DNA of 42,850 nucleotides from Chitinophagales bacterium (lineage in GTDB: Bacteria; Bacteroidota; Bacteroidia; Chitinophagales; CAIODY01), in contig JAPJNH010000134.1 in assembly GCA_026461075.1 (NCBI GenBank), positions 1-42,850 of the forward strand, in the 5' to 3' direction. A program made the translations under genes and the position numbers. Below the pieces are notes generated by a model. The model did not search any database and was not told the origin of the DNA. It was given only the letters and a program-made list of their open reading frames with translations. Shown here piece after piece: positions 10,217 to 14,477 of the stretch (position 1 is the first letter of the stretch; every line of letters starts with the position of its first letter).

Positions 10217-10642
10217 ATGAAAAACAATTTTGTATTTTTTGCAGTCATTATAGCACTGGCCTTTTCGCCTTATGTAATGGCTCAAGAAAACGAACCTGTT
10301 CAAGTACAAATTGTCCAATCCAAAGCAATCCTAACTTTGAATGAAGAGACGCATGATTTTGGCACGATTCCTGAAGGACCTAATGCAGCATGTGAATTTG
10401 AAGTGAAGAATACAGGAACAGAACCATTAGTCATCTATAGTGTAACTGCAAGTTGTGGATGTACTGTTCCGAGTTATTCAAAAGAGCCTGTTCTGCCAGG
10501 TCAAACTACAAACATTAAAGTTCTTTATCGTACTATAGGCCGACCAGGTTCTTTTACCAAAAGCGTAAACATATCTTCAAATGCGAGTAATGGTGAGTCG
10601 AAGATTATTTACATCAAAGGAACTGTACAAAACAAGCAATAG
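10217..10642 (+). CDS. DUF1573 secreted protein (first of a tandem pair)
   Basis: A 141-residue exported protein. The N-terminus is a signal peptide (MKNNFVFFAVIIALAFSPYVMAQ), probably cleaved after MAQ. The rest is one DUF1573 immunoglobulin-like domain: HDFGTIPEGP, then FEVKNTGTEPLVI, then ASCGCTVP with the conserved Cys pair, and a final ISSNAS strand. DUF1573 is common in Bacteroidota, with no agreed function. It is similar in order and motif spacing to the next gene (10725), so the two look like a duplication. A separate -7 box before the second gene suggests they can be expressed independently. Confidence 0.88.
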   Translation: MKNNFVFFAVIIALAFSPYVMAQENEPVQVQIVQSKAILTLNEETHDFGTIPEGPNAACEFEVKNTGTEPLVIYSVTASCGCTVPSYSKEPVLPGQTTNIKVLYRTIGRPGSFTKSVNISSNASNGESKIIYIKGTVQNKQ

Positions 10643-10675
10643 CCTATTTGTTATTTCCCTTTTCAACATTTTTTT

Positions 10676-10683
10676 TATATTTG
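10676..10683 (+). promoter_or_regulatory. -7 promoter box of the second DUF1573 gene
   Basis: TATATTTG matches TAnnTTTG, 41 bases before the ATG at 10725. A TTTG sits 25 bases upstream of it (10647-10650), a little far for a -33 element. Confidence 0.5.
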
Positions 10684-10724
10684 CTAAATACAAAATTTTC
10701 AAACTAAAACTAAACCATCATAAC

Positions 10725-11225
10725 ATGAAAAAACTAGCACTTTTACTTCTAGCTTCTGGATTATTCGTAATCAAGGCTAACGCACAAGCAGTTCCTGCTT
10801 CAGCACCTGCAGCTCAAACAGCACCTGCAGAAAACCCTAATGCTCCGGACATTAAATTTGTAACTGATCAACACGACTTCGGTACTGTACCTGAAGGTCC
10901 TCAAGCTAAATATGATTTCGAATTCGAAAACACGGGAAAAGAGCCATTAATTCTTCAAAACGTACAAGCTTCTTGCGGTTGTACAACTCCAGAATGGCCT
11001 AAAAACCCAATCTTACCAGGTGAAAAAGCTAAAATCATCGCTATCTACAATACACAAGGTCGCCCTGGTGCTTTCACTAAAACAATTACTGTAACTTCAA
11101 ATGCAAAATCACCTACAAAGGTTTTGACTATTCGTGGTACAGTTGAAGCTGCTCCAGCAACAACTGCTCCTGAAAAAGCTCCTAACATGATTAACACACC
11201 GAACCCTTCAAACGGCGGTCACTAA
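10725..11225 (+). CDS. DUF1573 secreted protein (second of a tandem pair)
   Basis: A 166-residue exported protein. The start is the ATG at 10725 (MKKLALLLLASGLFVIKANAQ), a typical signal peptide; the frame stays open upstream into the preceding gene's 3' end, but that part has no signal peptide. After the signal comes an Ala/Pro-rich linker (about 22-40), then one DUF1573 domain with HDFGTVPEGP, FENTGKEPLIL, ASCGCTTPEWP and GRPGAFTKTI, then a Pro/Ala-rich tail ending SNGGH. The linker and tail are absent from the first copy. Function unknown; probably periplasmic or surface-associated. It ends at a strong bidirectional terminator. Confidence 0.9.
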   Translation: MKKLALLLLASGLFVIKANAQAVPASAPAAQTAPAENPNAPDIKFVTDQHDFGTVPEGPQAKYDFEFENTGKEPLILQNVQASCGCTTPEWPKNPILPGEKAKIIAIYNTQGRPGAFTKTITVTSNAKSPTKVLTIRGTVEAAPATTAPEKAPNMINTPNPSNGGH

Positions 11226-13197: not shown

Positions 13198-14460
13198 TTA
13201 GTTTTGGTGCCAAACATTCTTAGTGAAAACACCCTTCACCTTACCTTGTAGCTGTTTGCCTAACAAAGCTGAATTTTTAGACTTTGATTTTATATCACTT
13301 TGCGAAAACAAAGTGTTGTATTGACGATCAATAAGTGTTAAATCCACTTGCTGGCCGACTTCAATAGAATTAATGGCTAAGCCAAGCAATTTGCGAGGAT
13401 TATGACTCATTAGTTCAACTATTTTATCATTTGATATTTTATTGTCGAAAGCCGTAATTAGGGCCGATAGACAAGTTTCTAAATTTATACTTCCTGTTGA
13501 AGCATAAGCAAATTCAACTGCCTTTTCTTCAATCGCTCGAGGCGTGTGACCTGAGCTAATCACTGAAATCGTTCCATCTAAGACTGCTTGCTTCATAGAT
13601 TCTACCTGCTCTTTATCCCTTAATGGAGGGAATAGTTTACAATTGGAATCAAACTCTGTCAACGACTCATCATTTAAAAGTAAGTAAAGACTAGAAATAC
13701 CCGCACTTACCTTTAAACTACTATTTATTGCTTCTTTTACTTGCTTTAAACTTTCCTTGGTGGTGCAGTTTAAGAAGTGAATTCGTGAATCAGCATATTT
13801 GCACAACTCAATATCTCTCTTCACCGCTAAATGCTCTGCTAAGGCAGGAATTCCTTTTAATCCAAGCGTTACGTGCACTTTTCCTTCGTGCATCATTCCT
13901 CCGTTAGACAAGGAAGGTGTATCAGGTTGTTGCAACAAAATACCATCAAATGCTTTAACATACTGTAAGGCACGTAATAGTAGGCCTTCATTTGCTAGTC
14001 CTTTACTTGCATCCGCAAATCCAAGGGCTCCGGCAGCATGCATATCGTACAGCTCGGCCATTTGTTCTCCCTTTATTTGCTTTGAAATAGCGCCTAAAAC
14101 GGAAAAATGAATATCCTGATTTTGATTAGTAACAAACTCAACGCCCGATTTATTGTCGATAGCCGGAGAGGTAGAAGGTAATACCACCAAATAACTATAA
14201 CCTCCTGCTAAAGCAGCTTTGCTAGCGGAGCGAAAATCCTCACGATCCTCTTTGCCAGGCTCACCTACCCAAGTTCCAATATCTACAAAAGAAGGCATCA
14301 AAAGCAAATCTTTGCCCTCTATTAGCTGATGTGTATCGTTAGGAATTGAATTTTCGATGGCGGAAATAATACCATCAATTACTAGAACATCCTTAACTTG
14401 ATTGTTGAAGGAAGAGCGTGGGTCGCAAACAGTTACCTGTCGAAAGAGAAGAGAACTCAT
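13198..14460 (-). CDS. Dihydroorotase homologue lacking catalytic residues
   Basis: A 420-residue amidohydrolase-superfamily protein that aligns along its length with class I dihydroorotase (pyrimidine synthesis), but the metal site is gone. The usual D-x-H-x-H-x-R-x-P-G reads DIGTWVGEPG (about 60-69); the next His region reads LLQQPD (about 175-180); the HVST His is Asn in FLNCTTKES (about 230); and the ATDHAPH Asp is Gly in SSGHTPR (about 304). So it is unlikely to close dihydroorotate. Inactive dihydroorotases that serve as structural partners of aspartate transcarbamoylase are known elsewhere; no pyrB is in the window. Start: ATG at 14460, not the TTG four codons upstream, which would lie in the promoter box. 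Confidence 0.88.
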   Translation of the reverse strand: MSSLLFRQVTVCDPRSSFNNQVKDVLVIDGIISAIENSIPNDTHQLIEGKDLLLMPSFVDIGTWVGEPGKEDREDFRSASKAALAGGYSYLVVLPSTSPAIDNKSGVEFVTNQNQDIHFSVLGAISKQIKGEQMAELYDMHAAGALGFADASKGLANEGLLLRALQYVKAFDGILLQQPDTPSLSNGGMMHEGKVHVTLGLKGIPALAEHLAVKRDIELCKYADSRIHFLNCTTKESLKQVKEAINSSLKVSAGISSLYLLLNDESLTEFDSNCKLFPPLRDKEQVESMKQAVLDGTISVISSGHTPRAIEEKAVEFAYASTGSINLETCLSALITAFDNKISNDKIVELMSHNPRKLLGLAINSIEVGQQVDLTLIDRQYNTLFSQSDIKSKSKNSALLGKQLQGKVKGVFTKNVWHQN

Positions 14461-14469
14461 ATCGAAAAA

Positions 14470-14477
14470 CAAAGTTA
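14470..14477 (-). promoter_or_regulatory. -7 promoter box of the dihydroorotase-like gene
   Basis: TAACTTTG on the minus strand matches TAnnTTTG and ends 9 bases before the ATG at 14460. Faces a plus-strand box at 14497, so the 59-base gap is divergent. Confidence 0.5.

Follow-up and report, generated by a model that had tools for sequence, protein, structure and literature searches.

The gene at 13198..14460 (minus strand) of the window, the 42,850-nucleotide stretch of DNA from a Chitinophagales bacterium that was analysed here, encodes a 420-amino-acid pseudo-dihydroorotase (PyrC'-like) in which the metal site of dihydroorotase (DHO) is gone while the predicted fold is retained. The product is probably a structural partner of the preceding pathway enzyme, aspartate transcarbamoylase (ATCase), and is conserved in a large bacterial group. 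By analogy with PyrC' of Pseudomonas, we consider it highly likely that the protein is a class A2-like, noncatalytic DHO subunit that binds PyrB and is needed for ATCase assembly or stability.

Loss of the metal site with the predicted fold retained

The gene was recognized from its open reading frame (ORF), profile and PDB homology, and predicted fold. The start was taken as the ATG (13198-14460); from a TTG, the ORF would span 13198-14472 (minus strand). Homology to class I DHO extends over the full length of the protein, and a PDB sequence search placed bacterial class I DHOs on top (E of ∼1e-55). The score against TIGR00857 (279 bits) is marginally below the cutoff of 279.05, and that against NF005614 (301 bits, E of 1.3e-89) is below its cutoff of 456. 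The ORF is flanked by an ABC-F gene on one side and by a gene with a weak, subthreshold TMTC match on the other. Elsewhere in the window, an overlapping pair of plus-strand ORFs (10217-10642 and 10581-11225) carries a DUF1573 domain in each member.

In the DHO of Aquifex aeolicus, the zinc ligands are H61, H63, and D153, accompanied by H180, H232, and the nearby D305, as given in passages of PMC3880350. Alignment with this enzyme indicates that none of the six metal or catalytic positions (0/6) is kept in the window protein. Counted from the ATG at 14460, with all codons on the minus strand, metal ligand H61 is replaced by G62 (14275..14277), metal ligand H63 by W64 (14269..14271), metal ligand D153 by A151 (14008..14010), H180 by Q178 (13927..13929), H232 by N231 (13768..13770), and D305 by G304 (13549..13551). 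D150, the neighbor of the A. aeolicus D153 position, is retained, and there are further changes at R65 (G66 in the window protein) and H309 (R308). The loss of the HxH motif, both later histidines, and the catalytic aspartate, as described in the initial annotation, is therefore borne out, and D153 is a sixth position in addition to the five that it named. Its companion claim, that the fold is retained over the full length, is likewise supported by modeling. Structure prediction for the protein alone, which it had proposed, gave a DHO fold (AlphaFold2 with alignment A2; pLDDT of 87.7, pTM of 0.91), and DHOs ranked first when the model was compared with the PDB by Foldseek (4yiw, TM of 0.92; 3d6n, the Aquifex DHO in its ATC complex, TM of 0.93, root mean square deviation of 2.5, and 27% identity to the model).

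The loss is not a sequencing artifact, because the orthologue in a genome of the same genus (G012), with 79% identity to the window protein, also keeps 0/6 ligands and 72 of the 73 class orthologues inspected keep no more than two. A scan of the genome contigs with the single window protein gave one close relative. Metal positions were counted in 144 of 398 genomes (criterion, best DHO of ≥250 bits with profile A2); the loci counted are the best-scoring ones plus hand-chosen families rather than a random sample, and strong DHO matches outside this count were assigned to the pseudo-DHO by score alone. Within the order and class of the window, 0, 1, and 2 positions are kept in 18, 50, and 4 genomes, respectively, and the sole orthologue with 6/6 among the 73 is that of G184. 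Among 71 DHOs from other classes of the phylum, 69 keep 6/6, the other two being G119 (0 kept) and G207 (2 kept).

The initial annotation had raised a new substrate as an alternative to a structural role. Catalysis on a new substrate, or by a novel mechanism that needs no metal, would account for the retained fold and for the 36 columns, H305, K313, R281, and P278 included, that are still fixed in the degenerate clade (44 rows) among the 92 fixed in active relatives (62 rows). Passages of PMC2770081 report DHO activity for a Zur-linked PyrC paralogue in which the zinc residues are not conserved. Nevertheless, five of the six ligand columns are among the 22 that the degenerate clade has lost, and these vary widely across families: in entropy, columns 61, 63, 232, and 305 rank in the 86th to 96th percentile and column 180 in the 73rd, with column 153, mostly Gly, in the 32nd. 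No new fixed motif was seen at the old metal columns by column entropy in the degenerate clade. To us, this points to selection that has relaxed on the pocket but still preserves the body of the protein, rather than to a rebuilt active site; the drift of the metal columns lends no support to a new substrate, and we judge a new enzyme very improbable.

That the gene is a decaying relic without function would agree with the loss of every catalytic residue. Against this, dN/dS is ∼0.05 to 0.10 in four DHO gene pairs (dN of 0.055 to 0.147 and dS of 0.77 to 2.28, the latter partly near saturation), 155 of the 178 class genomes give strong matches, and none of the pseudo-DHO rows listed contains an inner stop. 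Both the dN/dS and the conservation make a relic barely conceivable. In the three pairs for which both were measured, dN of PyrB was ∼4-fold lower than that of DHO.

The genome of the window (G000; 2.53 Mb in 166 contigs, 99.7% complete, 4.1% contamination) was searched for a second DHO, as had been suggested, and one was found. TIGR00857 detected the window gene, a second full DHO (contig C32), and a weak stretch (contig C153), with none above the cutoff; the second DHO (L002, 1450-2841, minus strand) passes the cutoff of NF006688 (679 versus 535 bits), and its closest match is Porphyromonas gingivalis 2gwn (445.8 bits). Its HxH is Q-V-H (DDQVHFREPG), as in 2gwn and in L180 (three sequences compared), and it retains the HCE, H-I/L-S-T, and DHAPH motifs. 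The presumed working DHO of this genome thus seems, from its sequence, to be without the first His of HxH. The window protein might itself still be a DHO, through another metal site or through a site completed by PyrB: the A. aeolicus DHO gains activity with ATC, and the kinetics of its H180A/H232A double mutant are unchanged (passages of PMC3880350). The window protein, however, has also lost the alpha-site (H61, H63, and D153) and D305, and its genome encodes a separate DHO, making retained DHO activity highly improbable.

Occurrence of the gene and the type of PyrB

G000 has a single PyrB, on contig C106, where it adjoins a gene taken for pyrR; the pseudo-DHO lies away from it, on contig C65. 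A search of G000 for PyrI (PF01948) gave no match. In the PDB, this PyrB scores almost the same against its best matches, with 201.9 bits for the Aquifex ATC from the complex with DHO and 200.9 bits for 6pnz, which leaves the kind of PyrB undecided. Phylogenetic trees place it with the native type of the class, a lineage that goes with DHO.

Presence of the gene was assessed in 178 genomes of the class, comprising 119 of the order and 59 more from a draw across the phylum (the draws share 17), with a strong match defined as >170 bits with the single protein or an E of <1e-110 with profile A2. A strong pseudo-DHO match was found in 155 of the 178; G184, with an active-type gene beside pyrB, was kept separate. 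Two of the listed matches (G077 and G028) are split or cut at contig ends. PyrB is present in 154 of the 155, the exception being G008 (94% complete, 590 contigs); the PyrB of G036 is split across two contigs, with either piece below the cutoff.

The remaining 22 genomes are without the gene. Ten of them have no PyrB above the cutoff (nine genomes of family f10 and G272), six, all of family f20, have a PyrB resembling that of Bacillus subtilis, and three (G335, G343, and G093) have PyrI beside PyrB, so that PyrB has been lost or replaced in 19 of the 22. Such tracking of PyrB would be unexpected for an enzyme of a new pathway. PyrI was above the cutoff in 3 of the 22 genomes without the gene and in 0 of the 155 with it; G053 (f10) has a subthreshold PyrI match containing a stop. 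By our own count, about five independent losses (f20, f27, G093, f10, and f25) lie behind the 22 absences. The three genomes that keep a native PyrB without the gene are drafts (G007, 92% complete; G011, 93%; G092, 99%, in 530 contigs). The region may be absent from these drafts, in which gaps are possible, because phmmer found no cluster genes at the DUF4199 loci of G007 and G092 and G011 gave no DUF4199 match. With G007, G011, G092, and G008 as exceptions, presence of the gene is tied to the type of PyrB across the class. The association is looser in other classes, where, among the matches listed, nine f40 genomes have PyrB with a trace of class I DHO or none, and G301, outside the class, has PyrI together with an active DHO.

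The nine f10 genomes (G009, G023, G035, G046, G053, G060, G067, G073, and G079) are 4.5 to 7.6 Mb in size and have no PyrB above the cutoff; judging from their sequences, this family may have given up making pyrimidines de novo despite its large genomes.

Trees of PyrB and DHO were thinned by family. In the second PyrB tree, 13 named rows, including G018, were omitted, and a maximum of two rows per family dropped G093, G092, and others; its bootstrap was unsettled, with several weak inner branches. The second, smaller DHO tree omits G033, G003, and G154, which had long branches in the first. In both PyrB trees, the native PyrBs of the class fall into a single clade (52 rows, SH-aLRT of 98; 34 rows, 100/100), nested among PyrBs of other classes, most of which accompany active DHOs. 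The PyrB of f20 groups with that of B. subtilis (SH-aLRT of 98 in the first tree; 100/99 with two f20 rows in the second), and the Aquifex PyrB joins B. subtilis and f20 in the second tree (92/83, on a long branch). The PyrB of G018 lies outside the native clade in the first tree, on a long branch, and assignment of the G093 PyrB to the PyrI type rests on the first tree and the adjoining PyrI.

A single origin with the pseudo-DHOs of proteobacteria was also considered. The DHO tree, which is unrooted, has a clade of class pseudo-DHOs (35 rows, 97) and one of proteobacterial sequences (5 rows, 99); it is compatible with a common degenerate ancestor and with separate origins alike. The PyrB tree speaks against a single origin and favors separate ones, as a 67-row set from the phylum (97/87) excludes the proteobacterial PyrBs (6 rows, 94/86). 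A further independent loss of the metal site is likely in G207, because its DHO (99, first DHO tree) and its PyrB (100/94) both lie among the active-DHO sets; the smaller tree does not fix where its DHO belongs.

Gene order and the envelope-like cluster

Across the class, the pseudo-DHO gene lies away from pyrB. In the same-genus genome G012, the two are ∼46 kb apart, and the smallest gap among class genomes compared by eye, the active-type G184 aside, is ∼10 kb (G097). Outside the class, pyrB often adjoins pyrC: at least 29 genomes of other classes have the two side by side (220 searched; read by eye), and in some, e.g., G141 (f39), they are on separate contigs. In G119, of another class, the open frames of pyrB and a 0/6 DHO share 19 bases. 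In Hymenobacter canadensis (L311), a plasmid bears pyrB together with an active-type DHO, and the pair in G184 (C23:494515-496830) closely resembles this one, with 95% identity in PyrB. G272, which has the same genus code as G184, has no PyrB above the cutoff and no strong DHO match of this type.

Several families place the pseudo-DHO in an envelope-like cluster, and this placement could mean another role. The order in G255 (f24), where the cluster is complete, is a BatA-domain protein, pseudo-DHO, two DUF4199 membrane proteins, and a GT2 glycosyltransferase, and that in G365 is BatA, pseudo-DHO, one more ORF, and DUF4199. Portions of the cluster surround the gene in f3, f6, f16, f19, and f26, and plasmid 2 of Rufibacter tibetensis encodes a hypothetical protein, "dihydroorotase," two DUF4199 proteins, and GT2. 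Function with these neighbors in the envelope, and not with PyrB, would explain such gene orders. In contrast, BatA-like, DUF4199, and GT2 genes remain without the pseudo-DHO where PyrB was lost or replaced in G272, G184, G060, and G079 (BatA identified by its Pfam N-terminal domain in G272 and G060 and by phmmer in G184 and G079), and DUF4199-GT2 is retained without it in G206 (f20) and in G335 and G343 (f27). The neighbors persist without the DHO, and the cluster therefore does not explain the losses. The window gene itself lies outside the cluster, the only DUF4199 match of G000 being on a different contig. The distribution of DUF4199 and the gene order consequently weaken the case for an envelope role, which we regard as quite improbable.

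The R. tibetensis orthologue keeps 0/6 positions, and its label confirms, for one named case, the expectation of the initial annotation that such genes would be annotated as DHO.

Proposed role and known systems

The metal site is lost, dN/dS is low, the gene is conserved across the class, and its presence follows the type of PyrB; the pattern fits a subunit that a particular type of PyrB requires. The initial suggestion of a structural or regulatory partner of ATCase draws support from the phylogenetic profile, gene order, and partner trees, all of them comparisons of genomes. Against a PyrB partner are the separation from pyrB in G000, the native PyrB standing alone in three drafts, the placement of the G018 PyrB off the native clade, and the near equality of the PDB matches of PyrB.

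We propose that the ancestor of the class probably had PyrB together with a catalytically active class I DHO, a state that persists in other classes of the phylum, often as a pyrB-pyrC pair. The chemistry would then have passed to a second, 2gwn-type DHO, and the old subunit would have lost its metal site while keeping its fold and contact role, with its gene now away from pyrB. Physical contact with PyrB, which for a class A2 ATCase would mean a dodecamer, the requirement for ATCase activity, and this order of events are what we infer. A wider extension is improbable: that in most Bacteroidia the first committed reaction of the pyrimidine pathway is carried out by an ATCase dependent on a pseudo-DHO of separate origin, released from its link to pyrB and in many cases located among envelope genes, with the pseudo-DHO perhaps acting as a regulatory subunit coupling pyrimidine supply to envelope glycan synthesis.

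A gene called dihydroorotase throughout a large bacterial class is very probably without DHO activity, and pyrimidine metabolism would be modeled wrongly wherever it is counted as PyrC. If the proposal is true, ATCase in the class would be a two-chain complex and not a simple trimer, and the repeated loss of the subunit along with loss or exchange of PyrB would be a natural experiment on a dead enzyme kept for its contacts. A search of open-licence papers recognized none on a pseudo-DHO in Bacteroidota.

Among known systems, the second DHO of G000 is of the P. gingivalis type (2gwn; NF006688), a homologue annotated as dihydroorotase, as the window gene would be; it has 20% identity to the window protein and, unlike that protein, scores above its own cutoff. 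The DHO-ATC of A. aeolicus (3d6n and 4bjh) shares the fold of the window model, and its DHO, in contrast to the window protein, is catalytic and holds zinc (passages of PMC3880350). The pseudo-DHO domain of fungal CAD-like proteins (passages of PMC7053772) is also without zinc ligands and tied to ATCase but is a domain of a multifunctional protein, whereas the window protein is a separate bacterial chain.

The proteobacterial comparison set consists of five degenerate DHOs near pyrB and has no Pseudomonas row. These homologues (L307, L309, L312, L308, and L305, from Sinorhizobium meliloti, Sphingomonas, Ruegeria, Azospirillum, and Acinetobacter, respectively) lie ≤3 kb from pyrB and keep 0 to 3 of the 6 ligands, and the annotated ones are named dihydroorotase. 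The gene adjoins pyrB in Sinorhizobium and Sphingomonas and is one gene off in Ruegeria, whereas the window gene is unlinked to pyrB and falls in a different clade (97, against 99 for theirs).

Class A2 and PyrC' are used here as the usual names for the Pseudomonas-type ATCase and its pseudo-DHO. We file the window protein as a probable PyrC' of a class A ATCase, of probably separate origin, and as no firmer a member because its gene is unlinked from pyrB and its association is deduced from comparison. The name PyrC' appears in passages of PMC2770081. The closest parallel in kind is PyrC'/pDHO (pyrX) of Pseudomonas putida and P. aeruginosa, likewise a separate class I DHO chain without zinc ligands. 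According to passages of PMC7053772, the ATCase chain of P. aeruginosa is by itself an inactive monomer and becomes active on addition of pDHO, in a complex of ∼457 kDa; complex formation and the dependence of ATCase were measured there, whereas for the window protein they are predicted from genes.
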